From NCBI GenBank assembly GCA_026874595.1, contig CM049318.1:46914456-46978455 (forward strand): a DNA stretch of 64,000 nt. Reading direction: 5' to 3'. Each line of letters starts with the position of its first letter. The first letter of the stretch is position 1. The DNA comes from Sipunculus nudus (taxonomy: Eukaryota > Annelida > Sipuncula > Golfingiida > Sipunculidae). Below, piece after piece: positions 4,913 to 64,000 of this stretch. The notes under the pieces were generated by a model. The model saw only the letters and a list, made by a program, of their open reading frames with translations, was not told the origin of the DNA and made no database searches. Position numbers and translations under genes: made by a program.

Positions 4913-7888
4913 ACAAGGCCTACAGGCCTAATGCGACCTGTGCAATGAGATTATACCAGGTATAATGCTTCAATGCTGAACCATTACTTTTCAAGAACAT
5001 GTGTAACATGTATTTGAACAATGCAAGTACTAAACACTTAGAACAAGAAACAATTAAACAAACATCACTGCTGCAATTCTGGCATGGGTGCACACAACAC
5101 AAAAACTAGAATATGGGTAGTCAACAAGCGACTACGTGTATCTGCCAAAATCAGAGTGGGAAAGGTGAAGTGAGGCATAGATTGAGTGGCAAGGGGAAAT
5201 AGAGTGAGGTGTGTTGCATAATAGCCTGGATGTCTGCAGCCAATATGTGTATGTAGGTGGCGTCACCTGTCATAAAATCAAGAAAGTTGTCCAGGATGTA
5301 TACACATGCAAAATTCAGGTGGATAAGTCCAACCAATGCAGAGATATGAGTGTTTTTATCCCAAGGCAGATAAACAGACGGACGCTGTGCAAAAATGGTG
5401 GCAGGTGGCGCCACCAATTTTGTGTATGATTAAAAGATATATGAGATCTATACACATGCAAAATTTCAGGGGAATAAGTCAAACCAGTCCTGAGATATAA
5501 GCCTGAATGTCTGCAGCATATACATAAATGTAGGTGGCACCACCTGCCTAAAAATCCAGAAAGCTATCCAAGATGTATAAACATGCAAAATTTCAGATGG
5601 ATAAGTCAAACCACTGCCAAGATAGGAGTGATTTTATCCCAAGGCAGATGAACAGATGGATGCTGTGCAAAAATGGTGGCAGGTGGCACCACCAGTTTTG
5701 CATATGATAAAGAGCTATGGGAGATCTATACACATGCAAAATTTTGGCCCAACTGGTCAAACAGTTCCCGAGATATGAGCTTGGATGTCTGCAGCTTAAA
5801 CGTGAATGTAGGTGGCGCCACCTGTCATAAAATCAAGAAAGCTGTCCAGAATGTATACACATGCAAAATTTCAGGAAAATAAGTCCAACCAATGCTGAGA
5901 TATGAGCAATTTTATCCCAAGGCAGATGAACAGATGGACGTTGTGCAAAAATGGTTCCAGGTGGTGCCACCATTTTAGTGTATGTTATAAAGCTTTCCAA
6001 GGGCTACATTTGTGCAAAATCTTTAGCCTTATCGGTCAAACGGTTCCCGAGATATGTGGGTTTATGTGTGGAAACAGACACACAAATGGACGCTGGGCAG
6101 AGAGGAAAGGTCAGAGGTCAACCAAAAATGAGGGCGCAGCAGTTCATATGTGACCGATCATAATTCCAAATTTTAAAAAATTCTGCCCAGTGGGTATGGA
6201 GGAGTTCTCCGGAAACCTATGCAGCAATTGCGGCAGCGTCGGCGTCCGACTGAAAACATAGTATCCACAAAACTCTGTTTTGGCGGATACAATGATTGTA
6301 GCTGGCACCACCAGTATGTCAAACAAAACTATTTATAGAGCTGACATCATCTTGGCTAATGGCCAACATCAAGGCACTGGCAATCTGCCAATGGTAAACC
6401 AAGTGCTGCCATCTGTACACAAAAGTGGTCCCTACTTGTAATAACTTTGAAATTTATTTTCCCAATACGAAAGGCTTTTCAGCTGACTTTTTATAAGAAA
6501 GAATTCAGGAATATATGTAAAATTATTATGGATACATACTGAATGCAAAATTAAAATACAGATATATCTCATTGATGGCAAATTCTTGAATTAAGTTGAG
6601 TAGGGATACCAATAATTTATAATCCACGTACAGTTGTCTTTATATAGCCACAGAGAGCTGAATATCCATGATTGTACCATTGCCTGGTATGATGAATAAC
6701 TTAAATCATAAATCTAGCTTTTAAAAAAACTTTCTTGTCAATATTAACCAAAGATAACCTGAAATCTAAATGTCTAGTGGCATGATGTAATAGATGCTGA
6801 TAAACTGGTGCCAGGCTAGATGTAACAGCATCACACAGCTAACATATATGGTAAAATGACTCAATTCAAGCTCCATATTTCAGCCAAAAATCATTCATGT
6901 GGAACCATTAATGACAATTATTATAAGAATTATTGTAGGGATTATTCTTGTAAAATATTTAACGAACTGCCTTCAGTGGCATCAGTCGAAAAACATTTTG
7001 CAGGTTTATAACTCATATAGGAAGATACAGCAAACTGGCTAAGTTCAGCTTCCCGTACATCAGCCAAAAAGCACTGAACCAAAACCATTTGAACAAACTT
7101 GAATTATCAACATCTGAGGATAATTAATGTGTGAGATTTAAGAATTTGGCCCAGTGGTTTTTGAGAAAAAGATCTTTGTAGTCACTGAGCTCAAATGGGC
7201 TGTTATGGCATATGACTATATTCAGCTTCCCATAACTTAGCCAAAAGTCACTGAACTGAGACCATTTGAACAAACTTCAGAAAGCACTACCCTAGGATCA
7301 TTTCTGTGCGATATTAAACATTTTGGCCATAAGGTTTCAGAGAAGAAGTTTTTTGTAGCCCTCAGTGTAATACAGGCACTGATGACCCCGTACAAAAAAG
7401 GCCGATGCAGGTGGCGCCACCAATACCTCAATTTCAGATATGTCTCATGTGACCAACATTGGCATAAAATTTGGTGATGATAGCTCCAGCCTTTTCTGAG
7501 ATTGTAATTTTAGTATGCTTTTATGGACAGATGACTTAGTTCAACTTCCTGTAACTCAGCCAAAAATCTCCGAACTGGAACCATTCGAACAAACCTGAGA
7601 AAGATTGTTCCAGGGATCATTTCTGTGAAATATTGGACAATATGGCTGGACAGTTTCAGAGAAGAAGATTTTTAAAGTTTTTTGTAGCTTTTCCCCCATA
7701 AAATCTAAGAAAATGCAGTAAGCCAAAAAATAAGCAAAATCTAATTAAGTTTTTTTAGATAAATAATTTTTTGCATAAAATTTTGTGATGCTAACTCTTG
7801 CCTTTTTCAAGATAGTATGGGTTAACGTACAGACGCCGGACGACGGCTGAGGCCACACCATCTCATAAGCAAACAGGTTCGCTTACAA
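4913..7888 (+). mobile_element. Family A element carrying a nested family C element
   Basis: The left end is AACAAGGCCTACAGGCCTAA, with the hairpin-forming AGGCCT pair. The A sequence runs to about 5103, is interrupted by family C (5104-6292), resumes with 'tgattgtagctggcaccacc', and continues to a degraded right end near 7888 (CATAAGCAAACAGGTTCGCTTA). The part after the nested element closely resembles 28758-30048 and 39706-41296. No transposase, Rep or helicase frame is present, so it is non-autonomous. Confidence 0.75.
5104..6292 (+). mobile_element. Family C element, about 1.19 kb, nested in family A
   Basis: The left end (ACTAGAATATGGG) is followed by a hairpin (GTAGTC...GACTAC) and a subterminal motif related to TGTATCCGCCAAAA. 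The interior is a tandem series of half-units, each carrying GGTGGCGCCACC or a CpG-decay variant. The right end is a hairpin at 6261-6290 (GTATCCACAAAAC / GTTTTGGCGGATAC) followed by AA. The host A sequence reads on directly at both sides without an obvious target duplication beyond A residues, consistent with insertion between A and A (T|T on the other strand). Confidence 0.75.
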
Positions 7889-8375
7889 TATTTTTTACCA
7901 AATATGGGGGCCAATATGTTGAATCTCTCTTGAGAAAAGAGCATTAATTTATTTTACAGACACAGGAAGGATGGTGTCTGGTTTTCAAGAAAATTTTCAA
8001 GATGGATAGACATGCCAAATTTAAGACCAAAACCTTGAAACACTCCAGAGATATGAGCAATTTTCACCAAAAGCACATGTACAGATGGACACCATGGCAA
8101 AATGATAGCAGATGGTGCAACCAGTCTTAAGTACCAGATGGAGGAGTCTAAGATCAATGGATATGCACAATTTCAGGCCAATAGTGCAAATCACTCCTCA
8201 TAAAAGAGCATCAATTTATTTTTTTAAACAGGAAGGTAGGTGGCACCATCTGTCTGGTTTATGAGAACACTTTCCAAGAAGGATGGACATTCCAAATTTC
8301 AGACAAATACCTTGAACCAATCCAGAGAAATGAGCAATTTTCACCCAAAGCACACATACAGATGGCTGCCATGCT
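7889..8375 (+). mobile_element. Palindrome-bearing core fragment
   Basis: Contains two diverged core half-units around GGTGGTGTCTGG- and GGTGGCACCATC-like sites (about 7970 and 8235), with the shared phrases 'ttccaagatggatagacatgcc' and 'gagatatgagcaattttcacc'. Related sequence recurs at 11574-11770. No ends are recognisable. Confidence 0.5.
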
Positions 8376-11300
8376 AACAAGGGACCCATGGGTCACGGCG
8401 CTCAGCTGATCATGATTGGACTATAAATGTTTCTCCACTGTGATACTATATCGAGTCAATAAAGCTTATGAATATCATGGACATGTTGGGCTATTATAAA
8501 GGAATGTAATGTAATATGTGAGTAAATGATAAATGAAATTACCTGACTGATGGATTAATAGAGTCAAATATAGTGGTTTCTATTTTATTTATTTAGGAGG
8601 GGTTGAAAATTGTGATATATTTGAGGAAATATGAATGCAATGACAGCAGTATTAAGCAGTAGTAGAATGATGATAAGGCTATTTGTTGAAGGATCTAAAG
8701 TGTATGGTAGTCTGCAAGCTTTCAATTTGACAGATATGATGTTATGATTAACTATGCTGATAAAGTGATTTATGAATTTGTGACTGTATGACACAATATC
8801 TCTTTAGTCTTGACAAGGTACATTATTGTGATGCCCACTATGTTTATATTACACAATATTGACATAATTTCTGGCATGTACATAGGTACCTATGGACGAA
8901 TAGTTATACAAAATATTAAAGTATGAATATATCTGATTCTTCTTGTTCTTGCTTACTAAGGCTGACTTTGGGATGGGGTTCAGAGAAGGGAAAAGTGAGG
9001 GCAGCACGAAGGTGGATGTAGAAATATTCTATTGTAGTTTTTCATTTATATAAGAATATGAAAAGCTAATAGGAAAGGGGCCCTCCAACTTGGTTATAGT
9101 AAAGTTCTAAATATATGATTGCAAACTAATACTCTGACAAGACTGTCATGAAGAAAAACAGTAAAATTTTGAGATACTGTGATGCATATGAAAATTTACA
9201 GATGGACAGGCAAGTGGACAGAATGGACTAATACCTTAATTTCACTTTCAAGGGAATAATGCATTTAAGTTTATATATAATCCTATTTTTTTTAAGCATA
9301 TCCACTTTTTCCATTAAGAAGTTCTTATCTGAATCATTTTTTTATTTACAGATTTTATAAATTTTTAATAAAAAAACCTGAAAATATAAGTTAAAATATT
9401 AGAATTGTTGCAAAAGTTGCAATCATTATATATACAGAGTAAAAAACTGAAACTATAAGTTAAAATATTAGAATTGCTGCAAAAGTTGCAATCATCATAT
9501 ATCTAGAGTGTAGCTCATATTGGGTCATATTATGCATACACATATATTTTGTTATTTTTAAATCATAAATGTTTAAACTGAATTTAAAAGAAAATAATGC
9601 CACAACATGGCATCTACAAGAATATTCCTTGAATCACTATTAAAAAGTTTTGCACATTCGAGTTTTCAGTACATGCTTAATTTTATTCACCAAAATAAAA
9701 TAAAAGTAAATTTGATAAAATAAAACATCTTTTCAAATAAAGTATACACACTGTTGGTTGAATGAGGGACAAACAATATCATCGTGCTAATTACTATCCC
9801 AGTGTTAATTTATTACTGGAATTAATAGTCAATTTCACACCTGGTGAAGTTTTTACTCTTCTGAAGTAAGGAATTACTTATCTGATGAACATCCACACTT
9901 TCATAGCAATACACCACTTTGTGGACACAATTAAATGTACACTCAATCACTGTAACCCTGGTGGTACAATACAAAATCTAAAATGTAGCATAGCCTAGAA
10001 TAAGAATGAATCAAATACAGAAAATAATAACATTCATCTAGTTTATGCACCATCTGGGGGGGGGGAGTGCAGGGCAGAGGGGAAGCCTGCTGGTAGTGGC
10101 CAGGCTGACCCAAGGCAAGCTGCCTGGGGTGGGTTACATAATGCAAGTGAAGGCTGTATACTACTAGGTGGGCTAGATGTAAACAACAATTGACATGGTG
10201 TATGAAAACATGAATAAAAGCTATTCTTTCCAATCAATTTCTTTGAAATTTCAGATTTTAAAAGATTAAATCCTTATGTATATATGCTGTGAAAATTAAA
10301 TCAACAGTGCCAAAGTTGGACAAAATTTAAGGTATTGATTTTTTATTTATGCTAATAACTTGGAAAATTTGCAAAATTCAGATCTAATTTTTGGTAAACA
10401 ATTGAATCTTGATTAAATAAAGTTATATTCCTGAAAAAAAGTCTCTAGGTTCAGCAATTCTCATGTTAGGTGAGTAAATATATTTCCTGATTTTTTTAAA
10501 AATTGCATTATGTTTTGGCCCATAACTTCAAAATAATACCCAATACAGAGCTAATTTTTGGTATGTTCATAGAAAATGTATGAAAGAATGTGAATACTAA
10601 ATACAATCAAAAACAGATCAGTGGTTTTGATATTAGGCAGCCTTGAAGTGTAACGATGGCTTTTTTTATGGAAAACGGAGTTTTTTTTCCTTAATATCTC
10701 GAAGGAACAAAGTCCTAATGACCCAATTTTCGGTATGGTAGGAGATTTTGGGGACATCTAAAATTATGCCAACAGCCTGGGGAGCATAGAGAGGTGCACT
10801 GAATGACCTACAGTCATCAAAGTGGACTGCTTGACAATGTAAGGGAATACAACAAGAGCCTCCAAAAAAATCAATAACTAGCCTATTTTGCAGCTTTTAT
10901 TTTCAAATTTCAGATTTTAACAGATTAAATCCTTATGTATACATGCTGTGAAAATTAAATCCACAGTACTTACAGGAAAAAACGTGCCGTGGCCAAAGTT
11001 GGGCAAAATTTAAGGTACCAATTTTATATTTTTGCCAATATTTAAAAAAATTTAACAGATTTTGATCTAATTTTTGGTATACAATTAAATTTTGATTAAT
11101 AAAAGTTGTATTACTGGAAAAAAAGTCCCTACCTTTAACACTTTTGGTCTTAAGTGACCAAATATCTTCCTGATTATTTTACAAAGTCCATTATGTTTGG
11201 GCCATAACTGTTTTAAATTATATAATACTGACTTAATATCTGGCATGTACCTAGGAACTATATAGAAGAATATTTATGGTAAATATGAAGAAAACCAGAT

Positions 11301-11573
11301 GAGTGGTTAAGATATTAGGCAGTCCTGAAGTGTGAAAATAGATTTCTAATAAAAAACTGAGGTTTTTCCTTAATATCTCGAAGGAACGAAGTCCTATTGA
11401 CCCAATTTTCGGCATGGTAGGAGATTTTTGGGACATCTAACTGTATGCCGAATTTCAGATTCGTAGGTCCAACGGTGTCGAAACGTGCCAGTCTTACGGA
11501 CAGAGGGACGGACGACGACGGACAATGGACCACAACTATAGCTCAGATGACTTATAGTCAGCTGAGCTAAAAA
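8376..11573 (+). mobile_element. Family B element, about 3.2 kb, apparently full length
   Basis: The left end AACAAGGGACCCATGGGTC contains the palindrome GACCCATGGGTC and is followed by GCTCAGCTGA. The right end at 11538-11573 holds a near-perfect terminal palindrome (TAGCTCAGATGACT...AGTCAGCTGAGCTA) followed by AAAA. The interior repeats a block of about 0.65 kb ('aaatttcagattttaa', 'ttaaatccttatgtat') at 10250 and 10905. It is almost colinear with 18023-22779, which differs by one inserted transposon; the empty insertion site is TTA at 8904-8906. No coding sequence. Confidence 0.75.
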
Positions 11574-12954
11574 TGATTGCTGATGGAACCACCAGTGTTG
11601 AGTACAAAATGTAGGAGTCCAAGATCTATGGATATGCACATTTTCAGGCCAATAGGGAAAATCACTCTTCTTAAAAGGGTATTTATTTATTCTACAAAAA
11701 CGGGAAGAAAGGTGGTGCCACCTGTATGGTTTATGAGAAAACCTTCCAAGATGGATGGACATATATAAGTCAAGTTTGAAACCCATATATCAATCCAAGC
11801 TAGAGTTATCATCAGGAAATGAATTTTTGGACATATGGCTCCTGTGACCTTCACCTTTGACCTTGTGACCTAAAAATGGATAGAAGCCTTCTCTATTGGC
11901 AGGTGAACTATATGTTCAAAATAAATGGTCTGAAATGAAAAGTTTGGCTGAAAATGCATCAACAATCTTTTTGAAGAGGTGTCCTGTGACCTTGACCTTT
12001 GACCTTGTAACCCCAAAATCATTTGGGATCTTTCTTTTTTAGTGGGACATATATAAGTCAACTTTGAAATCCATACATAAAAAAAACTGTAATTATCATC
12101 TGGAAACTAATTTTTTGACAGATAGCTCGTGGCCTTGACCTTTGACCTTGTGACCCCAAAATGGATATGGATCATCACCTATTGGCAAGTGAGCTATTTG
12201 TTCAAGATGGAAGATCTGGGATGAAAAGTTTGGCTTAAAATGCATCCACAATTTCTTTAAAGATGCGAGTCCAGTGACCTTGACCTTTGACCTCATGACC
12301 CTAGAACCTATAGGGTTCTTACTTAAGTGGTGGGCCATACATAAGTCACGTTTGAAATCCAGATGGCTATCAACACTGGAGATATCATAAGAGGTGTGTG
12401 ATTTTCACCAAATATAGAAATATTAAGGTCAAGGCCACTCTCATGGTAAAGGTCATTACCCAGATTAACATAGACCACATCCCATAACCCATCTCTCTAC
12501 ATGTTCATAATATGAAAGAAATCTGCCCATTAGTTTTTGATTTATAATGCTCACAGTACTGTCAAGTGGCAATTATGGGGGTATTAAAAGGTGTAAAAAC
12601 AAGAAAAGGATAATAGGTGGTGCCACCAATTTCCAGCATATCACAAGGCTATCCAAGATCTTCGGTCACCTTGATTTTTGGACCAGTCCATGCAAGCTTT
12701 CTTGAGATATTTTAGAATTTGGGTTATTTTCAGCAAAAATTGATCTATTCAAGATCAAGATCAATCTCCTAGCAAAGGTCATGACCCCATTTTGAATAGA
12801 CTTCGTCCTCTTACCTATATCTATACAAATGTAAAGTTTGAAAAAGATCAGTGAAATATTTTTTGAGTTATCCCGCTCACAAGGTTTTTCTGCGGCGGCG
12901 GCGGGACCGTTGTGAAACCATAGTATCCCGGCTTTGTTTGGGGATACAATAGTT
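11574..12954 (+). mobile_element. Mixed core with nuclear-receptor-like motif repeats and a C-type 3' hairpin
   Basis: Begins with palindrome-bearing half-units like those at 7889-8375. It then has four copies of a GTGACCTTGACCTTTGACC-type motif (about 11848, 11988, 12130 and 12276) separated by 'gatgaaaagtttggct' and 'tatataagtcaagtttgaa' blocks. It ends with a family C-like hairpin at 12923-12947 (GTATCCC / GGGATAC) followed by AA. The left end is not identified. Confidence 0.55.
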
Positions 12955-13523
12955 ATATTGTAAAGTTTAAACCAATCAGCTTAACAGTTTCATCATAAAA
13001 CAGTGTATAACCTAGAAGAGTCTAAAATTACATTTTTCGCTTGTAAAAAACAGATCAATATAGGTGGCGCAACCAATACCTCAATTTCAGTTACGACTTA
13101 TGTGACAAACATTGGCATAAAATTTAGTTATGATAGCTCCAGCCGTTTCTGAGATTTTAATTTTAGTGTGCTTTTTTTCAGACAGATGACTCAGTTCAAC
13201 CTCCTGTAACTCGGCAAAAAATCTCAGAACTGGAACCATTCGAACAAACTTGAGAGAGATTGTTCCAGGGATCATTTCTGTGAAATATTGGAAAATTTGG
13301 CAGGACAGTTTTGGAGAAGAAGAAGCTTTTTAGTTTTTTCCCTATAAAATCTAAGAAAATGCAGTTAGAAAAAAAAATTTAAAGTTTTTCAGATGACTGA
13401 TTATTTACAAAAAAATTTGTGATGCTAGCTCCTGCCATTTTTGAGATAGCTATGGTTAATGTACAGGCGACCCATGACAGACAATGCCGCACCATCGCAT
13501 AAGCTCACAGGTTTGCTAAAAAG
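12955..13523 (+). mobile_element. Family A 3'-part fragment
   Basis: Matches the last 0.55 kb of family A: 'gtttaaaccaatcagctt', a decayed palindrome GGTGGCGCAACC near 13061, 'ctgtaactcggc', 'attcgaacaaacttgagag', 'ccctataaaatctaagaaaa', and the right end CATAAGCTCACAGGTTTGCTAAAAA. Confidence 0.7.
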
Positions 13524-14207: not shown

Positions 14208-15597
14208 AAACTAGGGACCCATGGGTCTCAACGCTCTGCTGCATTTATCTATAAGGATATATGTTTATGAGGTTTTCCAAAATATTGATCCTGTGATCAG
14301 TTTGAAGCCAACCTGTCTACCCAAACTGGAGTTATCATCCATAAACTAATGTGTGAATGGATGGGCCCTGTGAGCTTAACCTTTGACCTTATGACCCCAA
14401 AATCAAAATGAAACTTCCCCTATTGGCAGCTCAGCTATATGTGCAAGATGGAAGGTTTTGGATGAAAAGTTTGGCTCAAAATGTATCCACAATCTTTCTA
14501 AAGTAGTGGGTACTGTGACCTTGACCTTTGATCTCATGACCCCAAAATCAAAGGGATTCTTACTTTAGTGGTGGGCCATATATAAGTCAAGTTTGAAACC
14601 AATATTTCAAACCAAACTGGTGTTATCATCTGGAAACTAATATATGTGTATTGATGGCCCCCATGACCTTTACCTTGTGACCCCAAAATCCATAAGTTAC
14701 TTCCACTATTGGCAGGTGAGCATCATCTAGAAGATAGAATGTTTGGGACAGAAAGTTTGGCTAAAAATACATCAACAATCTTTTTAAAGAAGTGGGTCCT
14801 GTGACCTTGACCTTTGGCCTTATGACCCCAAAATCAAAAGTGTTCTTACATTATTGGTGGGTCATATATAAGTCAAAATGGAAACCAATATGTCGATCTG
14901 AACTGGAGTTATCATCCAGAAACAAATATGTGGACAGATGGGCCCCTGTGAAGATGACCTTTGACCTTGTGACCCCCAAATCGATCAGTTTCTTCCCCTA
15001 TTGGCAGCTCAGCTATATGTGCAAGATGGAGGTTTTGGATGAAAAGTTTGGCTTAAAAAGCATCCCCAATCTTTCTAAATTAGTGGGTACTGTGACCTTG
15101 TCCTTTGACCTCATGACCCCAAAAACCACACGGTTAAGTTTGAAACCAATATGTCAAACTAAACTGGAGTTATCATCTGGAAACTAATTTGTGAACAGAT
15201 GGCCCCTGTGACCTTGACCTTTGACCATGTGACCCCAAATTCATTTATGTTCTCCCTATACTGGCAAGTCAGATAAATGTGCAAAATGGAAAGATTGGGA
15301 TGAAAAGCTTGGCTTAAAATGCAGCCGTAATCTTTTTTAAAAAGTGAGTCCTGTGACCTTGACCTTTGACCTCATGACCCCAAAATCATATAGGTTCTTG
15401 CTTTAGTGGTGGGCCATATGTAATTCAAGTTTAAAATCCATGTGTCAATACAACCATCTGAAATGATAACTATATGGCATCCACTTATGAAAAACACACC
15501 AGGTTTTGGGACACTAGATGTAATTACATCTACATGATCTGACATGATTGTTGTCATTTTATAGTGAAAAAAATTTAAAATATTCGTTTAAATAACA
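14208..15597 (+). mobile_element. Family B-ended element with a TGACCTTGACCTTTGACC core (right end missing)
   Basis: The left end is a variant of the B terminus (CTAGGGACCCATGGGTCTC then CGCTC). The interior is a tandem array, with about 290 bp between equivalent sites, carrying eight GTGACCTTGACCTTTGACC-like motifs near 14370, 14515, 14662, 14801, 14950, 15092, 15207 and 15353. The linkers ('gatgaaaagtttggct', 'ctggagttatcatc') are shared with 11800-12400 and 36000-36850. No right terminus was seen before the family A element at 15598. Confidence 0.6.
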
Positions 15598-18022: not shown

Positions 18023-18550
18023 AACAAGGGACCCATTGGTCACGGCGCTCAGCTGATCATGATTGTACTATAAATGTTTCTGCACTGTGATACTATATCG
18101 AGTCGATAAAGCTTATGAATATCATGGACATGTTGGGCTATTATAAAGGAATGTAATGTAATATGTGAGTAAATGATAAATGAAATTACCTGACTGATGG
18201 ATCAATAGAGTCAAATAGTGTTTTTTTTTTTATTTATTTAGGAGGGGTTGAAAATTGTGATATATTTGAGCAAATGTGAATGCAATGACAGCAGTAATAA
18301 GCAGTAGTAGAATGATAATAAGGCTATTTGTTGAAGGATCTAAAGTGTATGGTAGTCAGCAAGCTTTCAATTTGATAGATATGATGTTATGATTAACTAT
18401 GCTGATGAAGTGATTTATGAATTTGTGACTGTATGACACAATATCTCTTTAGTCTTGACAAGGTACATTATTGTGATGCCCACTATGTCTACATATTACA
18501 CAATATTGACATAATTTCTGGCATGTACATAGGTACCTATGGACGAATAG

Positions 18551-18553
18551 TTA
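18551..18553. other. Target-site duplication TTA (left; right copy at 20283-20285)
   Basis: TTA on both sides of the 18554-20282 element, present once at the paralogous empty site 8904-8906. Confidence 0.85.
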
Positions 18554-24406: not shown

Positions 24407-24480
24407 AATGTGCTATACTTCACAAGTACACAATTCTATGTTTCACCTGATTTGGTCACGGTCAAGGTCAACTTTATTAT

Positions 24481-26280: not shown

Positions 26281-26288
26281 TTGGTGTT

Positions 26289-30393: not shown

Positions 30394-30398
30394 AATAT

Positions 30399-44505: not shown

Positions 44506-44562
44506 GTCACTCTCTCATGATCTTTTACTTAATACATTAATTATGTGCTACCCACCATAACT

Positions 44563-45028
44563 AAAAAAGGCCTACAGGCCAAATGCGAACCTGTGCAAAG
44601 TTTAGGAGTATGAATGGAGGTTTATTTTTCAAATTTAATATTGATCCTTTTATGTCCAGCAAAATGGACATTTCTGACCTGCAAGTTTATGACTAGGTCA
44701 TTTTAAAACTAGGATGTATCAGTCAGGATATCTGGATATGTTCTTTTTGCCAGGGAGGATTACTGAGACAGATGAACGGACAATTTGGCAGCATGGTTTC
44801 AGATAAGAACATTTTTTAATGTTTTTTAGCTTCTTCCCTATAAAATCTAAGAAAATGCAGTTAGCCAAGAAATAAGCAAAATCCAATAGAATTTTTTAGA
44901 TTTTTTTAGAATTTTTTAATTTTTTTGCAAAATATCTAGTGATGCCAGCTCCTGCCCTTTTTGAGATAGCTATGACGCACAACGGACGACGCAATACCAT
45001 TGCATAAGCTCAAAGCTTCCCTAAAAAT
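44563..45028 (+). mobile_element. Short family A element, about 0.47 kb
   Basis: Left end AAAAAAGGCCTACAGGCCAA, a brief interior, then directly the last 200 bp of family A and the right end GCATAAGCTCAAAGCTTCCC plus TAAAAAT. The core is deleted. Confidence 0.65.
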
Positions 45029-50553: not shown

Positions 50554-51216
50554 GTGTACCCAGTGTGATCACAGTAGGCCTGCCACATTTACACAAAAAT
50601 GAATGGGAAAAACTGAGACTGAGAGTATCTGTATTAGTGATATCCCAAATAACTGTGGCTGAACATGCAAAAGAAATGCAAAAATGAATGGGAAAAACTG
50701 AGACTGAGAGTATCTGTATTAGTGATATCCCAAATAACTGTGGCTGAACATGCAAAAGAAATGCAGTCACACCAACTGGCAAGTGACAGTGACAGTTTTT
50801 TTAGAGAGATTCTAAGGGCTGACAGGTGTACAATAACCAGACCTACAATGAAAAATTTATTTCAATCAAAAGGTTTTGATGTATCTTATGTGCCCTTCAT
50901 TCTCCATAAAGCTAAATCTAAAATAACCATAAGATAAAACAGGAGTTTGTGGTTGAATCAGTGGGTGTAAAAATGTCACTCTTGAAAAAATTTGAGATCT
51001 GCCATGCATGTGCAAAATCAGAGCTCCAGTCACTCGGCCTTTTTATGGTAAACAGACACACATGGACTGTGTTTACACACACAAATCCTCACCACACAGA
51101 ACCATAACAAGCTGTTAAGCAGCTAAAGTGGAGGTACCTGGACCATGTGCTGGGATAGTTTTGCTTGGAAACTTTCGGATAAAGCATAAATGATTTGATA
51201 GTGTGAAATAATAAGC
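50554..51216. other. Unassigned DNA with an 85-bp tandem duplication
   Basis: 50596-50680 is repeated at 50681-50765. The plus-strand frame 50665-50937 (about 90 codons) begins in the second copy and ends 'VPFILHKAKSKITIR'; it resembles nothing I recognise. Since 85 is not a multiple of three, the frame is not maintained between copies, arguing against coding function in the repeat itself. Confidence 0.45.
50596..50765. repeat. 85-bp direct tandem duplication (2 copies)
   Basis: Two adjacent 85-bp copies that appear identical by eye, beginning AAAATGAATGGGAAAAACTG. Confidence 0.92.
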
Positions 51217-53563: not shown

Positions 53564-54913
53564 ACTACAGATGCAAATTGAATGCAAAATTATAATACAG
53601 ATACATCTCACTAATGGCAAAATCTTGAATTAAGTTGAGTATGGATACCAATTACTTATAATCTATGTATAGACGTCTTTATATAACCACAGAGAGCTGT
53701 ATACTTACGTGATTGTTAACATTGCCAGGCATGAAGAATATCTAAAATCATAAATATACATTTTTTAAAAGCTTAAAAAAAACATTCTTGTCAATATAAA
53801 CCATAGATACCCTGAAATCTGAAGGTCTAGAGGCATGATGTAATGGATGCTGATAAACTGGTGCCAAGGCTAGATGAATCTGCTTTACACGGCTAACATA
53901 CCAGTATATGGTGAAATGACTCAATTCAATTTTTATAATTCAGCCAAAATTCATTCTTTGGAACTATAAAAGATAATTATTATAAGAATTATTCAGGGGA
54001 TTATTTTTGTAAAATATTAAACAAAGTGGCCTCAGTGGCATCAGTCAAAAAACGTTTTGCAGGTTAACAACTCATATGGGAAAATACAGGAAAATGGCTA
54101 AGTTAAGCTTCCCATAACTCAGCCAAAAATCAGTGAACCAAAACCATTTGAACAAACTTGAATTATCAACATCTAAGAATAATTACTGTGTGAGATTTAA
54201 GAATTTGGCCCAGTGGTTTTTGAGAAGATCTTTGTAGCCACTGAGCTGAAATGGGCTGTTATGGCATATGACTAAATTCAGCTTCCCATAACTCAGCCAA
54301 AGTCACTGAACTGAGACCATTTGAATAAACTTCAGAAAGCACTACCCTAGGATCATTTCTGTGTGATATTAAACAATTTGGCCATATGGTTTCAGAGAAG
54401 AAGTTATTTGTAGCCCTCAGTATGATACGGGTACTGATGACCCCCGTACAAAAAAGGCCGATCCAGGTGGCGCCACCAACACCTCAATTTCAGATATGAC
54501 TCATGTGACCAACATTGGCATAAAATTTGGTGATGATCACTTCAGCCGTTTCTGAGATTGTAATTTTAGTATGCTTTTTGGACAGATGACTAAGTTCAAC
54601 TTCCTGTAACTCGGCCAAAAATCACCGAACTTAAACCATTCGAACAAACTTGAGAGAGATTGTTCCAGGAATCATTTCTGTGAAATATTGGACAATTTGG
54701 CTGAACAGTTTCTGAGAAGAAGATTTTTAAAGCTTTTTTAGCTTTTTCCCTATAAAATCTTAGAAAATGCAGTTAGCCAAAAAATAAGCAAAATCCGATA
54801 GTTTTTTAGATGACTAATTTTTGCATAAAATTTCGTGATGCTAACTCTTGCCGTTTTCAAGATAGTATGGGTTAACGTACAGACGACGGACGACCATCAC
54901 AGGTTCGCTAATA
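53564..54913 (+). mobile_element. Family A 3'-part fragment
   Basis: Colinear with 22782-24138, with an intact GGTGGCGCCACC near 54466 and right end ATCACAGGTTCGCTAATAAT. It starts immediately after the preceding A right end, giving two A right ends in tandem. Confidence 0.7.
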
Positions 54914-55387
54914 ATATTGCTCTTGATCATCTTTAAATTACAAGTAGTATTATGATCCCTACTGTACATATGAGTCTGAGTAAGGTCTGAGTGTGTAAAT
55001 TTGCTGTACATTGTGTATATGACAGCTTGTATACGACCACATTAATCATGCTGGGGCCCAGATTAACAGGTGTCTGTGACCTGCCAAGAGTACACCAGTA
55101 CAATGTAACCCACCTGGCAGCGATCATTCACCTTCTTCATCATTTATCATCTATTTTCAGGTGTTTTTTTCCTCACATGTTTTACATGACTTTCAAGGAG
55201 TTTACTGAGCCTACAGATGTATGAATGATGTATTTTTACAGAGACTCTTGACTGAAATCTCTTAACTGCAGTGATTGTGCTTATTTTTTACAGTTTTTGC
55301 TGTAATGATCATATCAGATTACAAAGTTAATAAATCCAGCTTGGTAAATAATATTTATGATGTGTTAAAAAGGACTCTAAAGAGAAG
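54914..55387. other. Unassigned DNA
   Basis: No element match. An acceptor-like 'tctattttcag' near 55150 is followed by a short open frame to a TGA near 55222 (ending MTFKEFTEPTDV). This could be a small exon but there is nothing to confirm it. Confidence 0.35.
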
Positions 55388-55513
55388 ATAACAGGACAAC
55401 AGGAAAACTGAAGAGGTGATAGGACAAAGTGAAAACAAAGTGGTGATAGGACAAAGTGAAAACAGAAGAGAGGACAAGACAAAGTGAAAACAGAAGAGGT
55501 GAAAGGATAAAGT
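55388..55513. repeat. 28-bp minisatellite, segment 1
   Basis: The unit is GAAAACAGAAGAGGTGATAG plus GATAAAGT (28 bp), about four to five copies. It ends exactly at the left terminus of a family B element (AACAAGTGACCC). Confidence 0.9.
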
Positions 55514-58500
55514 AACAAGTGACCCATGGGTCATGACGCTCAGCTGACTGGGAAGAGATTCGCTAAAGGAAATTTTATCATCAGAATGGTAGTATATACC
55601 CATTCAACTGAAGCATCAAACAGATTAACCAACAGGCCAAGATTTAGTCTGTATTTATATATCTCAAAAATAGAGAAAAAATGTGTAAACTTTAAAAACT
55701 AGAATACGGGTAGCCGACAAGTGACTATGTGTATCCGCCAAAATCAGAGTGGAACAGTTGAAGTGAGGCATGGATTGAGTGGCAAGGGGAAATAGAGTAA
55801 GGTATGTTGCATATTAGCTTGGATGTCTGCAGCCTTAATGTGTATGTAGATTGTGCCACCTACCACAAATCCAGAAAGCTGTCCAAGTTGTATACATATG
55901 CAAAATTTTAGGCAGAAAAGTCAAACAACTACATGTATATGAGTGATTTTAGCCGACGGCAGACAAACAGACAGACGCTGTGCAAAAATGGTTGCAGGTG
56001 GCCCCTCCAGTTTTGTGTATGATAAAGACCTATGTGAGATCTATACACATGGAAAATTTTGGCCCAATCGTTCAAACGTTCCCCAGATATGAGCTCGGAT
56101 GTCTGCAGCATAAACTAGAATGTAGGTGGCGCCACCTGTCATTAAATCAAGAAAGCTATCCAGGATGTATAAAACTGCAAAATTTTAGGCAGATATGTCA
56201 AACCACTGCCGAGATATGAGTGACATTATCCCACAGCAGAAAACAGACAGACGCTGTGCAAAAATGGTTGCAGGTGGCGCCACCAGTTTTGCGTATGATA
56301 AAGAGCTATGTGATATCTATACACATGCAAAATTTTGGCCCAATCGGTCAAACTGTGTCTGAGATATAAGCTTGGATGTGATCAGCGTGAACGTGAATGT
56401 AGGTGGCGCCATCTGTCATAAAATCAAGAAAGCTATCCTGGATGTATATGCATGCCGAATTTCAGGTGAATTAGTCAATTCACTGCAGAGATATGAGTGA
56501 TTTTTACCCAAGGCAGATGAACAGATGGACACTGTGCAAACATGGTTACAGGTGGCGCCACCACTTTTGTGTATGTTATAAAGCAATCCAAGGGCTACAT
56601 TTGTATAAATTTTATTTCCTGATTGGTCAAATGGTTCCCGAGATATGAGGGTTTATGTGTGGATAAGACGCACAAATGGACGCTGGATAGAGGGGAAAGG
56701 TCAGAGGTCAACACAAATTGGTTAGGCACTAGTTCACATGTGACTAGATAATTAGTGTAAGTTTCTGAAAAATCGGTCCATTTTTCTCAGAGGAGCTCTC
56801 TGGAAACAAACGTGGCGGCGGCGGAGGAACCCGGTCAAAAACATAGTATCTGCAAAACTTCGTTTTGGAGGATACAAAAATACAGGTGGCTCCACCAGTC
56901 TGCAGAAACTAATAAAAACACTTAATGGTCAATATCCATGCAAAGAATCATGGTGATCTCTGCATTAGTTGTTCAGATACTTCAGCTTTTGTATCAAATT
57001 GTCCATTATTCTGAGGGATAATTCAGAGTCCTATAGCTTGAAGGATATGGGTAACAGAGACCTAATTTCAAGTTTCCACAGGCACTCTTCATGGGCCTCC
57101 TTGTATGACAAGAATGAAGTTTCTAGGTCCAGTTGTTGCAATTTGTACCCTGTTGACAGATAACCACATCTTTAAAGGTCTCAAAAAAAGAGAAAAAAAA
57201 TTCGTAAAAATTTGAAAAAAATAGAGGTGGCGCACCCATTCTGCAGAAACTGTTGGAACAGCTCATGATCCATATGTATGCCGAAAATCATGACCATCAG
57301 TGTTGTAGTTATTGAGATATTGAAGATTTTGTATGAAATTTTTTACTACTCTGGGGGGTACTTTGGGGCCCCATAGCTCTAGGGTTGGGTAACAAAGACC
57401 TAATTTCTGGTTTCCATGGAGACTTTTCATAGGTCTCTCAGTGTGTCGAGAATGAAGATTCTAGGTCCAGTTGTTACGATTTGTGCCACGCTAACAGATG
57501 ACAGCATCCTTAAAGGTCTCACAAATAGAGGAAAAAATCGTGAAAAATCGAACAATACAGGTGGCGCCACCAGTCTGCAGGAACTGATTGAACATCTCAT
57601 AATCAATATGTATGCCAAAAATCATGACCATCAGTGATGTAGTTATTGAGATATTGAAGTTTTTGTATGAAATTTTTGACAACTCTGGGGGGTACTTTTG
57701 GGCCCCATAGCTCGAAGGATATGGTTAACAGAGACCTAATTTCTGGTTTCCAAGGATATTTTTCATGGACCTCTCAGTGTGTCAAGAATTAAGATTCTAG
57801 GTCCAGTCTTTACGATTTGTTCCTTGTTAACAGATGTTCACATTTTGAAAGGTCTCAAAAATAGAGAAAAAAATTCGTAAAAAATTGAACGATATAGGTG
57901 GCGCCACCAGTCTGCAGGAAGTAATGGAACATCTCATGATCAATATGTATGCCAAAAATCATGACCATCAGTCAAGTATTTAATGAGATATTGAAGTTTT
58001 TGCATGAAATTTTTTACTTTTCTGGGGGGTACTTTGGGGCCCCATAGCTGCAAGGATATGGGTAACAGAGACCTAATTTCTGGTTTCCATGGAGACTTTT
58101 CATAGGTCTCTCAGTGTGTCGAGAATGAAGATTCTAGGTCCAGTTGTTAGGATTTGTGCCTTGTTAACAGATGTTCACATTTTTAAAGGTATCAAAAATA
58201 GAGAAAAAAATTCGTAAAAAATCGAAAAATACAGGTGGCGCCACCAGTCCTCAGGAAGTGATGGAACATCTCATGATCAATATGTATGCCAAAAATCATG
58301 ACCATCAGTCAAGTAGTTAATGAGATATTGAAGTTTTTGTATGAAATTTTTTACTTTTCTGGGGGGTACTTTGGAGCCCCATAGCTGGAAGGATATGGGA
58401 AACAGAGACCTAATTTCTGGTTTCCAAGGAGATTTTTCATTGACCTCTCAGAATGTAAAGTTACAAGATTCTAAGTCCAGCGGTTACGATTTGTGCCAGG

Positions 58501-58582
58501 TTAACGGACAGACCGACAGACGGACGACGGACAAAGAGTGATTGCTATAGCTCAGCATGACTGAAAGTCAGCTGAGCTAAAA
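55514..58582 (+). mobile_element. Family B element inside the minisatellite, with nested family C
   Basis: Left end AACAAGTGACCCATGGGTCA, right end at about 58548-58582 (TATAGCTCAGCATGACTGAA, GTCAGCTGAGCTAAAAA). Family C is nested at 55698-56876. The remaining interior is a tandem array of about 336-bp units starting at palindrome sites near 56884, 57226, 57560, 57897 and 58233, each carrying 'ggtaacagagacctaatttc' and 'ctaggtccagt'. A GGACGG-rich patch precedes the right end. The 28-bp minisatellite flanks it on both sides. Confidence 0.8.
55698..56876 (+). mobile_element. Family C element, about 1.18 kb, nested in family B
   Basis: Left end ACTAGAATACGGGTAGCC with the subterminal motif TGTATCCGCCAAAA. 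Core palindromes lie near 55996, 56125, 56273, 56402 and 56550, with the 129/148 spacing. Right hairpin GTATCTGCAAAAC / GTTTTGGAGGATAC then AA. It sits in an A run immediately before ATACAGGTGGC of the host B unit. Confidence 0.8.
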
Positions 58583-58911
58583 ACAGAAGAGGTGAAAGGA
58601 TCAAGTGAAAACAGAAGAGGTGATAAGTCAAAGTGAAAACAGAAGAGGTGATAGGATAAAGTGAAAACAGAAGAGGTGATAGGATAAAGTGAAAACAGAA
58701 GAGGTGATAGGATAAGGTGAAAACAGAAGAGGTGACAAAACAAAGTGAAAACAGAAGAGATGACTGGACAAATTGAAAACAGAAGAGAGGACAAGACAAA
58801 GTGAAAACAGTAGAAGTGAAAGGATAAAGTGAAAACAAAAGAGGTGAAACGATAAAGTGAAAACAGAAGAGGTGATTGATTAAAGTGAAAACAGAAGAGG
58901 GGCAAGACAAA
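58583..58911. repeat. 28-bp minisatellite, segment 2
   Basis: About 12 units. 58741-58876 appears identical to 60972-61107 in segment 3, including odd variants such as 'gatgactggacaaattg'. Bounded by a B right end on the left and a B left end on the right. Confidence 0.92.
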
Positions 58912-60816
58912 AACAAGGGACCTATGGGTCACTGTGCTCAGCTGACGTTAACCTTGAAGGTAAAAATCTAAAATGATATCTAATGGAGATAAAGTGTAAG
59001 AGGAAGAGGTAATAAAGGCCATGGTTGGTTTATATGATTGGTTTGTATTGATGAGCAAGAAATTGTTGCAAAAAATATTTTGTGACCTGACCATGTGTTT
59101 CCTAATGTTGAAACTAAAGCATGTGAGCAGTTTGTGAACAAATGATCTGTACTATAACCATGATCATTAATTGGTTTTTTGATTAACTGTTGACATTTCA
59201 GTAGTTTACACATTTGTTCAACTGAATCTATTTTTTTGTATAATATATATTATTAAATATATATGTATTTTTTTTATGAAATGTATACAGTTGAAATACA
59301 GCTAATAAACAACATAAAACAGGGCAAACAAAGCCTGATCTCAAATTCTGCTGAGGCAGGAAAATAATGAACACATGTTTGTATTAAATCCTGATTTTTT
59401 TATCACATCAATTATTTTCTAATTTAAGTTTATATTTCTATACATTTCCAATTTAACATATATATCTGGATATAAAAGTTGATTCATAATTCTCAATTGT
59501 ATCATCATAAATCTCAATCTTGTCAGATAACACACCACATCATGCATACAAATGTTTATCTATTTTTTACCACAAAAATATATCTTTTAAATCTGCAAAA
59601 CAGTATCTAAAAATAATACTTGATTTAGATTTCACAATTTTTAATTGTGTCTTTATTTATTCATAATGTGCTTCATATTTTATAATAAATTAAGCATACT
59701 GATGGGTTCATTTATATTTATAAAATCATTTAAAAGAAAATTGATTTCTTTAAAAATGCTACATTACACAACATTGCATCTTCTGGGTTACACCTTGAAT
59801 TATTTTTTCAATGAAAGTTTTTGCATATCGGAGTGGAAACAGCATTACAATTAAGGAGATACAGTGAAAACAATAACAATTACTGCATAACACTTGGTGG
59901 GTTGGGTTTGCGGGGGGGGGGGGGGGGGGGTGATTGGGGTGGTGATATGAGAATAACTGTACACCTGTCACAGCAGGGGATCTCCCCCAGTGACTGTAAC
60001 AAATCAGAAACCCTGGCATAGCTGACTTCCAGTGACCTGGAGTGGGACCCTGCATCTGTAATCAAAGCAAGTGACTACAGAAAAAAAAATCAATAACTAG
60101 CTTAATTTTCAAGCTTTTATTTTCAAATTTCAGATTTAGACAAACTAAATATTTATGTTTACATGCTGTGAAAATTAAATCAATGGTGCTTATAGGAAAA
60201 AAACGTGCCATGGTCAAAGTTGGGCAAAATTTAAGGTACTGATTTTTTTTTTATGCTAATAACTTAAAAAAATTACAAAATTCAGATCTAATTTTGGGTA
60301 AACAATTGAATCTTAATTAAACATAGTTAAATACTTGAGAAAATAGACTCTAGTTTCAAAATTTTTCATGTTAAGTGAGTTATTATTTTTCCTGATTTTT
60401 TACAAAGTCCATTATGTTTGGGCCCATAACTTAAAGAATTTATACTTTTCAGTCTTAATTTCTGGCATGTACATAGGAACTATATAGAGGAATATTTATG
60501 GTAAATATGAGGAAAAACAGATGAGTAGTTTTGATATTAGGCAGTCCTGAAGTGTGAAAATAGGATTTTAATAAAAAATTGAGGTTTTTCCTTAATTTCT
60601 CAAAGGAACGAAGTCGCAAAGACCCAGTTTTCGGCTTGGAAGGAGATCTTGGGGATATCTAACATTATGCTGAATTTTGGATTCCTAGGTCTTACGGTTT
60701 CAAAACGTGCCACATCTACGGACGGACGGACGGACGGACGGACAGACAGACGGACGGACGACTGACAATGGACCACGACTATAGCTCAGATGACTTATAG
60801 TCAGCTGAGCTAAAAA
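58912..60816 (+). mobile_element. Family B element, about 1.9 kb
   Basis: Left end AACAAGGGACCTATGGGTCA then GCTCAGCTGA. Interior sequence at 60080-60700 matches 10870-11470 and 22240-22690. A GGAC tetramer run lies at 60720-60760, and the right terminal palindrome ends near 60816 (AGTCAGCTGAGCTAAAAA). 58980-60060 is mostly unassigned AT-rich DNA with a 19-base G run at 59912-59930. Minisatellite lies on both sides. Confidence 0.75.
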
Positions 60817-61480
60817 GGAGAAGTGAAAGGATAAAATAAAAACAGAAGAGGTGGAAGGAAAAGGTGAAAACAGAAGAAGTGACAAAACAAAGTGAAAACA
60901 GGAGAGGAGCCAGGATAAAGTGAAAGCAGAAAAGGTGATAGGACAAAGTGAAAACAAAAGTGGTGATAGGACAAAGTGAAAACAGAAGAGATGACTGGAC
61001 AAATTGAAAACAGAAGAGAGGACAAGACAAAGTGAAAACAGTAGAAGTGAAAGGATAAAGTGAAAACAAAAGAGGTGAAACGATAAAGTGAAAACAGAAG
61101 AGGTGATAGGATAAAGTGAAAACAGAAGAGGTGATAGGACAAAGTGAAAACAGAAGAGGTGATAGGATAAAGTGAAAACAGAAGAGGTGATAGGATAAAG
61201 TGAAAACAGAAGAGGTGATAGGATAAAGTGAAAACAGAAGAGGTGATAGGACAAAGTGAAAACAGAAGAGGGGCAAGACAAAGAAAAAACAAAAGAAGTG
61301 AAAGGATAAAATAAAAACAGAAGAGGTGGTAGGAAAAAGTGAAAACAGAAGAGGTGACAAAACAAAGTGAAAACAGGAGAGGAGCCAGGATTAAATGAAA
61401 ACAAAAGTGGTGATAGGGCAAAGTGAAAACAGAAGAGAGGACAAGAAAAAGGGAAAACAGAAGAAATGACAGGAAAAAGA
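60817..61480. repeat. 28-bp minisatellite, segment 3
   Basis: About 23 units. A block of about 110 bp with distinctive variants ('aggagaggagccaggat') occurs near 60816-60925 and again near 61293-61400, so the array contains a larger duplication. Long open frames on the minus strand (rich in FCFHF) are an artefact of the repeat. The array ends at a family A left end. Confidence 0.93.
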
Positions 61481-61830
61481 AACAAGCCCTACAGGCCTAA
61501 TGCGAACCTGTGCATTCTGATATACACAAGGTATAACGCTTCAATGCTGAACCATTATTTTTTATATTTATGAACAATACAAGTACTAAACATTTTGATC
61601 AAGAAACAATCACACAAACATCACTGCTGAAATTCATCACTGCTGAAATTCTGGCATGGGTGCACACAACACAAAAATGATTGTAGCTGGCACCACCAGT
61701 CTTGTATACAACGAAGCTATCAGAGATATATACATATGCCAAATTTCAGACTGATATATCAAACCCTTCCTGAGAAATAAGCAGGGACACACACTGTCCA
61801 AAAATTATTGTAGGTGGCACCACCATTATT
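61481..61830 (+). mobile_element. Family A left part, truncated
   Basis: Left end AACAAGCCCTACAGGCCTAA, then A sequence with two core sites (near 61688 and 61813). It loses similarity near 61830. A 20-bp phrase 'catcactgctgaaattc' is duplicated at 61620-61650. Confidence 0.7.
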
Positions 61831-61963
61831 CTCACTTGATCAGAAGGGAGACAAAGTTGAACTGCAAAAAAAGGTTTTAATTTTTTTCAATCCAGTATTC
61901 ACAGTGCAGAAGGCCCATCAGACGAGATGTTGGTAATAAACCAATCAACTATTTGGAGATTTA

Positions 61964-64000
61964 AACAAGGCCTACAGGCCTAATGCGAACCTGTGCAAAG
62001 TTTGGGAGTATGAATGGTTTATTTTTTTAAATTTTATATTGATCCTCTTAAGTCCTGCATATCTACCTTAGTCATTATGATTTCAGCAAAATGGATGTTT
62101 CAGACCTGCAAGTTTCAGACTAGGACATTTTAAAACTAGAATATGGATAGTCGACAAACGACTATGTGTATCCACAGATATCAGAGTGGGACAGGTGGAG
62201 TGAGGCATGGATTAAGTGGCAAGGGGAATAGAGTGAGGAGTGTTGCATATTAGCATGGATGTCTGCAGCCTAAACGTGAATGTAGGTGGTGTCACCTGTC
62301 ATAAAATGGAGAAAATTGTCAAGGATGTATAAACCTGCAAAATTTCAGGTGGATAGGTCAAACCACTGCTGAGATAAGAGTGATTTTATCCCAAGGCAGA
62401 TGAACAGATGGACGCTGTGCATAAGTGGTTGCAGGTGGCACCACCAGTTTTGCCTATGATGAAAAGCTATGTGAGATCTATACACAAACAAACTTTTGGC
62501 CCAATTGGTCAAATGGTTCCCGAGATATGAGCTTTGACGTCTGCAGAGTAAACATGAATGTAGGTGGCACCACCTGTCATAAAATCGAGAAAGCTGTCCA
62601 GGATGGATAAACCTGCAAAATATCACAGATATCAGAGTGGGACAGGTGGGATAAGTCAAACCACTTCGGAAATATGAGTGATTTTATCCCAAGGCATATG
62701 AACAGATGGAAGCTGTGCATAAGTGGTTGCAGGTGGCTCCACCAGTTTTGCCTATGATGAAGAACTAACTGAGATCTAAACACATGCAAAATTTTGGCCC
62801 AATCAGTCAAACAGTTCCCGATAAATGAGCTTGGATGTCTGCAGAGTAAACCTGAATATTGGTGGCACCACCTGTCATAAAATCAAGAAAGCTAGCTGTC
62901 CAGGATGGATAAACCTGCAAAATTTCAGGTGGATAAGTCTAACCACTTCTGAGATATGAGTGATTTTATCCAAAGGCAGATGAACAGATGGACGCTGTGC
63001 ATAAGTGTTTGCAGGTGGCGCCACCAGTTTTTCCTATGATGAAGAGCTATGTGAGATCTATGCACATGCAAAATTTTGGCCCAAACGGTAAAACAGTTCC
63101 TGAGATATGAGCTTGGATGTCTGCAGAGTAAACGTAAATGTAGGAGGTGCCACCTGTCATAAAATCGAGAAAGCTGTCCAGGATGTATGAACCTGCAAAA
63201 TTTCAGGTGGAACTACTGCTGAGATATGAGTGATATTATCCCAAGGCAGATGGACAGATGGACGCTGTGCAAAAATGGTTGCAGGTGGCGCCACCATTTT
63301 TAGTGTATGTTATTAAGCAATCAAAGGGTTACATTTGTGCAAAATTTTTAGCCTGATCGGTGAAACGGTTCCTGAGATATGAGTGTTTATGTTTGGAAAC
63401 AGACGCACAAATGGACGCTGGGCAGCGAGGAAAGGTTGGAGGTCAACCAAAAATGAGGGCGCAGCAGTTCACATGTGACCTGATGATAAACCCAATTCAC
63501 TTAAAAAGCAAACCAAGTTTTTTCAAATAGTTGAAAGATATAGTTCCAATAATCTGGGAATTCTGCATCTAGACATTGTGTCAAGAAGTCTAGATGCTGT
63601 GTCTAGACGTCTAGACACATAGTCTAGACACCAGCCAGAACCAGGTCAGTTGCCATGGTGATGTCTGGACCCCACCTGTTTGTACTGAGTGACCTCTTGA
63701 CTTGGCTGCTGAAACTCAGCATGTTGTCAAATCTGTTTTCAAACACAGAAACCCTTTTTCAATTGGCTACAATGCTTTTTTAAAGCTGTATTTACCCAAT
63801 CTATTCTTATAAAACTGGCTGAACCCTACCATAGAATAATTCTTGTAAAGTTTAAACCAATCAGCCTAACAGTTTCATCATAAATCAGTGTATAAGCTAG
63901 AAGAGTTTAAAATTACATTTTAGCTTGTAAAAAACAGATCAATGTAGGTGGCGCCACCAATACCTCAATTTTAGATATGACATATGTGACAAACATTGGT
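61964..64000 (+). mobile_element. Family A element with nested family C, running off the window
   Basis: Left end AACAAGGCCTACAGGCCTAA. Family C is nested at 62135-63482. A resumes near 63483-63510 ('gcaaaccaagttttttc', as at 45029) with the TCTAGAC cluster at 63567-63633 and an intact GGTGGCGCCACC near 63947. The right end lies beyond the window. Confidence 0.75.
62135..63482 (+). mobile_element. Family C element, about 1.35 kb, right hairpin missing
   Basis: Left end ACTAGAATATGGATAGTCG with hairpin TAGTCG...CGACTA. The core palindromes (near 62287, 62436, 62563, 62732, 62860, 63013, 63142 and 63287) repeat with alternating linkers. The copy stops after 'cagttcacatgtgacc', lacking the terminal GTATCC...GGATAC hairpin seen in the other three copies. 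Confidence 0.7.

Follow-up and report, generated by a model that had tools for sequence, protein, structure and literature searches.

Background

The described systems that come closest to the elements reported here are Helentron-derived transposons (HINEs) and related members of the Helitron superfamily. The number of Ts borne by Helentrons themselves is variable (PMC4067079), a GTCY-type microsatellite occurs in several, not all, of the Cg_HINE elements of the oyster Crassostrea gigas (PMC7492417), and 257 of 751 oyster Helitron-like elements, which start with 5' TC, possess subterminal inverted repeats (subTIRs) and were termed possible intermediates (PMC7992393). FoHelis show repeated 5' ends with a single 3' end, ascribed to self-insertion (PMC5148889), and the clam element DTC84 has a palindrome near its repeat junctions (PMC5139131). 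Here we analyse a 64,000-nt stretch of the Sipunculus nudus genome (GenBank assembly GCA_026874595.1, contig CM049318.1, positions 46,914,456 to 46,978,455 of the forward strand; hereafter the window). More than half of it is made of three small mobile-element families, A, B and C, which have no recognisable genes and are nested unidirectionally. We suggest that all three are very probably rolling-circle transposons of the Helitron superfamily, non-autonomous and with ends of the Helentron (HINE) type, which in C are combined with a 3' terminus resembling that of Helitrons. This rolling-circle type has already been described from oysters and flies, and the three families look new within it. 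The locus would be a compact case of Helentron-type elements that bear satellite-like repeats and build nested blocks.

Results and discussion

Three families and their end loci

The window has a G+C content of 36.5% (base counts), no tRNA was found in it by ARAGORN and no match by Rfam at gathering thresholds, and its self-comparison shows numerous repeat families. Tiling with five reference segments assigned 35,241 of the 64,000 bases to A, B or C, with every accepted row in the same orientation. An earlier sequence-only reading had named three families by their end motifs, and these hold, as the motifs exceed their chance level in 100 dinucleotide shuffles per motif: GCGAACCTGTG at up to one mismatch occurs 13 times (0.25 expected), GCTCAGCTGA 22 times (2.19 expected; this 10-mer is partly self-complementary, so some loci are counted double) and TGTATCCGCCAAAA at up to two mismatches six times (0.57 expected).

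Both-strand profile scans followed by inspection gave, for A, B and C respectively, 12, 7 and 4 loci at the 5' side and 10, 7 and 4 at the 3' side. The least secure of these 44 are the C-like locus at 12948 (E-value 0.0016), B at 1098 (0.011) and A at 988 (1.8e-5); the A locus at 24481 (2.3e-8), which covers part of the profile only, is also among the weakest. Left outside the 44 were partial matches to the 5' profiles of A (at 16399, 41205, 42055 and 51877; 2e-5 to 8e-5) and of B (at 22729-22781), all matches weaker than 0.01 save that at 1098, and the opposite-strand 5'-profile matches at five B loci (1.7e-5 to 3.2e-4) and one C locus (6306-6261, 0.008), which coincide with the same ends because those ends contain internal inverted repeats.

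End architecture

On the minus strand the three families are built alike. A subTIR lies 1-6 nt inside the 5' terminus, and the 3' side runs from the partner repeat through a palindrome to a T-rich terminus, with the 3' subTIR internal to the palindrome and ~20-35 nt from the 3' end. In typical form (copies vary), A starts with TTTTTAGCGAACCTGTGAGC and finishes with GCACAGGTTCGCATTAGGCCTGTAGGCCTTGTT, B with TTTTTAGCTCAGCTGACT and TCAGCTGAGCGYCRTGACCCATGGGTCCCTTGTT, and C with TTGTATCCGCCAAAACAGAGTTTTGTGGATAC and TTTTGGCGGATACACGTAGTCGCTTGTTGACTACCCATATTCTAGTTTTT. The common end plan proposed by the sequence-only reading is thereby borne out as to subTIRs and palindrome. Its partner repeat, however, is not strictly terminal (about six bases lie beyond it in A and B, TAAAAA on the plus strand), the A palindrome and repeat that it gave in direct succession are both present but separated by AAT, and the A end that it placed at 4913 falls at 4912 in the profile.

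The same reading proposed three distinct transposition machineries, a view that the termini do not favour. A and B have a common terminal plan, TTTTTAGC.../...CCTTGTT, around unrelated subTIRs, since TTTAG or a longer form recurs at 9/12 A and 6/7 B 5' ends and terminal TTGTT at 8/10 A and 5/7 B 3' ends (read by eye). The C ends differ and are tied to no enzyme. In all four C copies the 3' end consists of a palindrome of 19 nt, not perfect in every copy, and 11 nt that close with CTAG, with a T following; the stem proposed earlier for C is present in all four with changes, and in its exact form, TAGTCG...CGACTA, in one (read by eye). With respect to canonical Helitron1 features, A and B have neither 5' TC nor 3' CTRR, while C has the hairpin and CTAG in 4/4 copies, no 5' TC, and an A|T insertion that fits one of two events.

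Perfect palindrome stems were present at 6/10 A and 4/7 B 3' ends, and the fold was equalled by 12 of 200 shuffles for A and by 13/200 and 3/200 for two C ends. At the 5' side, an inverted repeat near the subTIR scored at least 7 in 6/7 B ends (background 78/300) and 7-9 in all four C ends (same background for at least 7), the scored pair in two of the C copies being other than the subTIR; a gapped complement of the C subTIR was seen by eye (GTATCCGCCAAAAC / GTTTTGTGGATAC). At least three GTCY units near the 5' end were counted in 6/7 B, 4/12 A and 0/4 C copies, with a background mean of 0.74 per 110 nt. Of the Helitron2 traits (asymmetric terminal inverted repeats, a hairpin at each end, and a Rep/helicase that has no endonuclease), asymmetric repeats are present and a 5' hairpin is possible in B and C.

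Insertion sites and target duplication

Paralogous empty sites were recovered for two C events and one B event, all insertions into T-runs. Eighteen candidate end pairs were joined, and 8/18 gave a match across the join among the matches listed; by our own count the informative joins are those of B 8376-11572 and three C copies. The joins of B 55514-58583 and B 58912-60816 lie inside a 28-bp array where any join matches, that of B 34691-37104 matches its own end, and that of A 37232-41296 has only ~15 bp on one side.

The first C event is shared by the copies at 5101-6291 and 37408-39007, each lying within an A-run of an A element (hence a T-run of the host on the minus strand) with flanks as in the empty sites. 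Five uninterrupted A copies, matching from 15679, 27949, 48906, 51298 and 61571, supply the empty site, which reads CACAACACAAAAA followed by (T/C)(G/A)ATTGTAG in four of them, the fifth having diverged. This event allows the C termini to be drawn as TTGTATCC...CTAG (A|T), as TGTATCC...CTAGT (T|T), or one base further. The second event placed C (55694-56876) in a T-run of a B central repeat, the join being matched at 71-81% identity by six further B repeat units. Here a T precedes the element, and therefore T|T, the insertion that the sequence-only reading gave for Helentron-type elements, fits both C events and A|T only one. The B copy at 8376-11572 splits a C-like tandem repeat, of which a neighbouring unit of the same array (7980-8220) is intact (81% over 242 columns). 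In addition, the C-less A-prime copy at 44563-44640 already bears TTTTAAAACTAGGAT at the place where the copy at 61963-62175 has C's own AAAACTAGAAT, which may be chance or a remnant.

These C termini bring in a second reading, which we consider a serious candidate while holding it to fall somewhat short of an even chance: C could be a Helitron-like element with a hairpin followed by CTAG (a proto-Helentron or an oyster 'intermediate'), not a Helentron derivative, and would then use a Rep/helicase different from that of A and B. The 3' ends of all four copies agree with this, as does the C-in-A empty site, which permits TTGTATCC...CTAG between A and T; 5' TT, 3' CTAG and A|T insertion are proto-Helentron-Pi traits (PMC4067079), and CTAG with hairpin and subTIRs is reported in oyster elements (PMC7992393). 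The T before the element in the C-in-B event speaks for T|T instead, oyster elements begin with TC (PMC7992393) and C does not, and the proto-Helentron passages of PMC4067079 mention no subTIRs.

With boundary shifts of four bases allowed, the longest flanking direct repeat was 3-5 bp in all 13 end pairs, of which B 18023/24408 and B 58912/60816 are perhaps not single elements and two C copies represent one event; 294 of 300 random pairs had 5 bp or less. For the tested B and C sites there is no target duplication above background, and the multi-base duplication that would have refuted the sequence-only reading did not turn up there. An internal contrast is given by a 1.7-kb insertion at 18554-20282 in the B copy at 18023. 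This element is bounded by near-perfect terminal inverted repeats (TIRs), GGCCAGACT...AGTCTGGCC, and its target site shows a duplicated TTA. We take it to be PIF/Harbinger-like.

Filled sites carry two to five more A/T than empty ones (own count), and such extra bases could come from a 2-bp TT duplication. This is the point in favour of regarding A, B and C as cut-and-paste miniature inverted-repeat transposable elements (MITEs) or foldback elements with subterminal inverted repeats, A/T-run targets and a 2-3 bp AA/TT duplication. We hold that to be highly improbable, as the ends are asymmetric with a palindrome on one side only, 5' ends are duplicated and the T counts vary between events. We know of no cut-and-paste superfamily with the end plan of A, B and C.

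Central repeats, nesting and movement

The elements contain central tandem repeats. Profiles of the central monomers were compared after masking of the GGTGGCGCCACC motif: that of C found nine listed A monomers (best E-value 2e-13) and that of A 19 listed C monomers (best 6e-13), each with 18 further, unassigned matches and none on the opposite strand up to E 0.01. We conclude that A and C have homologous central repeats behind unrelated ends, an instance of unrelated end modules with such repeats in common. Between the C profile and B monomers there were two marginal matches (E 0.003 and 0.008), and no listed monomer of A or C was found by the B profile; motif aside, the B central repeats would be distantly related to those of A and C at most. 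B itself is not uniform: similarity between the copies at 8376-11572 (non-repeat interior) and 55514-58583 (337-bp central repeats; nested C removed) is confined to 34 bp of the 3' end and 118 bp of the 5' end, with an extra 32-bp inverted match inside the 118-bp part.

The palindromic motif GGTGGCGCCACC occurs at 84 loci with up to two substitutions, and a literature text search, which did not cover supplements, matched it in a chitinase paper only. An insertion hotspot beside this motif was considered and rejected as proven, with 6/23 5' ends within 25 nt of it compared with 49/273 A-runs of at least five bases (P = 0.22), or 5/22 when the shared C event is counted once (P = 0.36); only the background of shorter runs is exceeded (P = 0.0003 to 0.017).

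The A element with its nested C occurs twice, at 4912-7888 (C at 5101-6291) and 37232-41296 (C at 37408-39007). The two composites are 96.0% identical left of C and 90.9% right of it, and the C end segments 92.5% and 86.0%. Beyond the composites, identity over 100-base flanks is 35% and 42%, no higher than in 30 pairs of unrelated 100-mers (mean 45%, maximum 61%). This is most simply read as entry of C into an A element and later transposition of that A element by means of A's own ends. The B copy at 18023-22781 (interrupted by the TIR element, with ~24 nt of its 5' end missing) is 96% identical to 8376-11572 where aligned. The two have differing 3' flanks, and B therefore moved fairly recently.

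Elements are further arranged in chains repeated at the 5' side. Three A 5' fragments lie directly upstream of the 5' side of other elements in the same direction: 41298-42139, directly before the composite at 37232-41296 and with its own 5' end in a T-run of a B central repeat; 53562-54914, directly upstream of the A copy at 51216-53561; and 22783-24137, with its 5' end at a T-run of a B central repeat. Self-comparison, profile and tiling show a duplicated 5' module within two A copies, 15597-18026 and 51216-53561.

Many of the copies are tandem or partial, and this, together with the common central repeats of A and C, would also be expected if the families had spread chiefly by segmental duplication and recombination among satellite-like repeats and not by transposition. 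We give that explanation very little credence in view of the empty sites, the unrelated flanks of the A+C composite and the fact that similarity halts at the same termini.

Coding content and assignment

With four arrays masked, the longest stop-to-stop stretch has 162 codons. Pfam searches of 20 of the 477 stop-to-stop open reading frames (ORFs) of at least 45 aa gave no score reaching a curated cut-off, the best being 5TMH_Lnb (0.014), zf-CCHC (0.019) and DUF5976 (0.02). Nine query peptides (Rep, helicase, OTU, endonuclease and zinc-finger) were searched for in the window, with ten shuffles of non-overlapping two-base blocks as reference. Their best E-values were 0.019-0.9, all for short matches, and for 7/9 peptides one or more shuffles did as well; the helC (E 0.16) and endonuclease (E 0.035) peptides beat all ten over just 12 and 15 residues. 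On the plus strand, open frames at 26530-27822 have the weak CCHC zinc-knuckle match (E 0.019, under the curated cut-off) and are possibly a remnant of a retrotransposon ORF1 or gag. In a search for relatives, four sequence patterns had no match in a viral contig collection, and one had none in a prokaryotic collection, where a second matched 77 stretches (76 with one match, one with two; ~60 by chance, estimated by hand); both results have little bearing on animals.

We read A, B and C as HINE-type because of the end plan at 44 loci, the T-run targets of B and C, the lack of duplication above background, the nesting and the movement of the A+C composite. Membership is well supported in structure: B shows every structural HINE feature tested, A is without a clear 5' inverted repeat and C without the microsatellite. 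The HINE-like, minus-strand assignment of the sequence-only reading stands as regards the subTIRs, the palindrome at the 3' side, the T-rich ends, central tandem repeats, and T-run targets with no duplication above background; the other two features are not present in every family. Several observations weigh against the assignment. In mite HINEs the distances to the 3' end are 38-60 bp for the 3' subTIR and 8-35 bp for the palindrome, and here the subTIR of all three families and the palindromes of A and B sit closer to it; the B palindrome as single-stranded DNA folds no better than shuffles (150/200 as good); an inverted-repeat score of at least 8 occurs in only 1/12 A 5' ends; and no C copy has two or more GTCY units (0/4). 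No Rep or helicase was recognised in the window by the Pfam and peptide searches described above, and no two-sided empty site for A was found among the 18 joined end pairs. Further to that, the 13 direct-repeat pairs carry the reservations already given, and the extra A/T at filled sites can be element-borne Ts or a 2-3 bp duplication, which T-runs make indistinguishable.

Under the HINE-type reading, a Rep/helicase encoded elsewhere would nick the 5' end, unwind the element and copy a strand, as work on Helitrons suggests. Copying would halt at the 3' palindrome, which may act as a terminator as reported for Helraiser (PMC4778049), and a circular intermediate would, again by analogy with Helitrons, join into a T-run of the target. 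T-runs of older copies could receive new ones, giving nested, 5'-repeated chains, and a start at the 5' end of one element with a stop at the 3' end of another might produce chimeras, as proposed for FoHelis (PMC5148889).

One-way orientation

All 44 listed end loci point one way, and the opposite-strand profile matches with E below 0.01 fall on these very ends; many of the loci are non-independent through nesting and no probability was assigned. This orientation is the part least accounted for. The supply of T-runs was rejected as its sole cause, as runs of at least five inside elements are nearly equal on the two strands (170 and 181). They number 48 vs 18 in central repeats and 49 vs 4 beside GGTGGCGCCACC. 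It may be, unlikely as we think it, that insertion is strand-locked over tens of kb: single-stranded DNA transposons would enter one template strand only (e.g. the lagging one), aided by sense T-runs beside GGTGGCGCCACC in central repeats, which resemble the elements' own palindrome-plus-T-run 3' terminator and would serve as landing pads. A fixed strand bias of rolling-circle insertion along the chromosome is a checkable question raised by this locus.

Remaining copies and other repeats

All copies, those above included, lie on the minus strand. Further A sequences, assigned by profile and tiling unless stated, are a 5' fragment at 13043-13522 (self-comparison and profile), a copy without a 5' end at 27867-30046, a copy at 48828-50553 and a 3' fragment at 61481-61824. 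A short A-like element, A-prime, occupies 44563-45028 (profile), and an A-prime 3' end with C from ~62131 onward, that C lacking its 5' end, 61963-63507. A B 5' end with part of the central repeat (profile, tiling) lies at 24138-24408, and the 3' end of the B copy at 18023 adjoins the A 5' end at 18026. At 12892-12948 lies a C-like 5' end that has diverged (E 0.0016) and has no recognised partner 3' end.

Tandem repeats of 28 bp (AAAACAGAAGAGGTGATAGGATAAAGTG) at 55393-55513, 58580-58900 and 60812-61479 border B elements on several sides, flanking the copy at 55514-58583 (nested C at 55694-56876) and the stretch between a B 3' end at 58912 and a B 5' end at 60816, which is one element or two. 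This suggests that B entered one 28-bp array more than once. A further tandem family with CTTTGACCTTGTGACC has units of 146-288 bp at 11757-12361, 14299-15448 and 36262-36857 and may be a fourth HINE-type family, given a B-like 3' end at 14209. A satellite array of a 36-bp unit (~60 copies) fills 31843-34000, with C exceeding G on the plus strand (GC skew -0.43), and a degenerate ~50-bp minisatellite with G-runs 43325-44483.

Comparison with known systems

Compared by description, Cg_HINE of C. gigas (PMC7492417) is like A, B and C in its subTIRs, 3' palindrome, central satellite-like tandem repeats, T-rich targets without target-site duplication, and variously combined end and repeat modules. 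It resembles B further in a GTCY-type microsatellite and an inverted repeat at the 5' side, and differs in that A has no such inverted repeat and C no microsatellite. HINE-Mo and DINE-1 (PMC4067079) likewise have a subTIR near the 5' end, a palindrome near the 3' end, varying T counts and a T-rich target. Here the distance from the 3' subTIR (and from the palindrome in A and B) to the 3' end is shorter, the sequences are others, and a single locus holds three families nested unidirectionally. FoHeli/Helitron2 (PMC5148889) share asymmetric terminal inverted repeats and repeated 5' termini; unlike A, B and C, they are fungal, with autonomous copies and other end sequences.

For C, the 3' arrangement is that of Helraiser (PMC4778049), a 19-nt palindrome 11 nt before CTAG, to which C adds subTIRs. 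Oyster CTAG elements (PMC7992393) have, like C, a hairpin and subTIRs, together with the TC start that C lacks, and proto-Helentron-Pi (PMC4067079) has the 3' CTAG and a 5' TT that is possible in C, whereas T stands on both sides in one of the two C events. C thus appears close to the described oyster and proto-Helentron-Pi types, with a full match to neither, and the structure of the three families is, by this comparison, of the kind to be expected from the oyster work already published.

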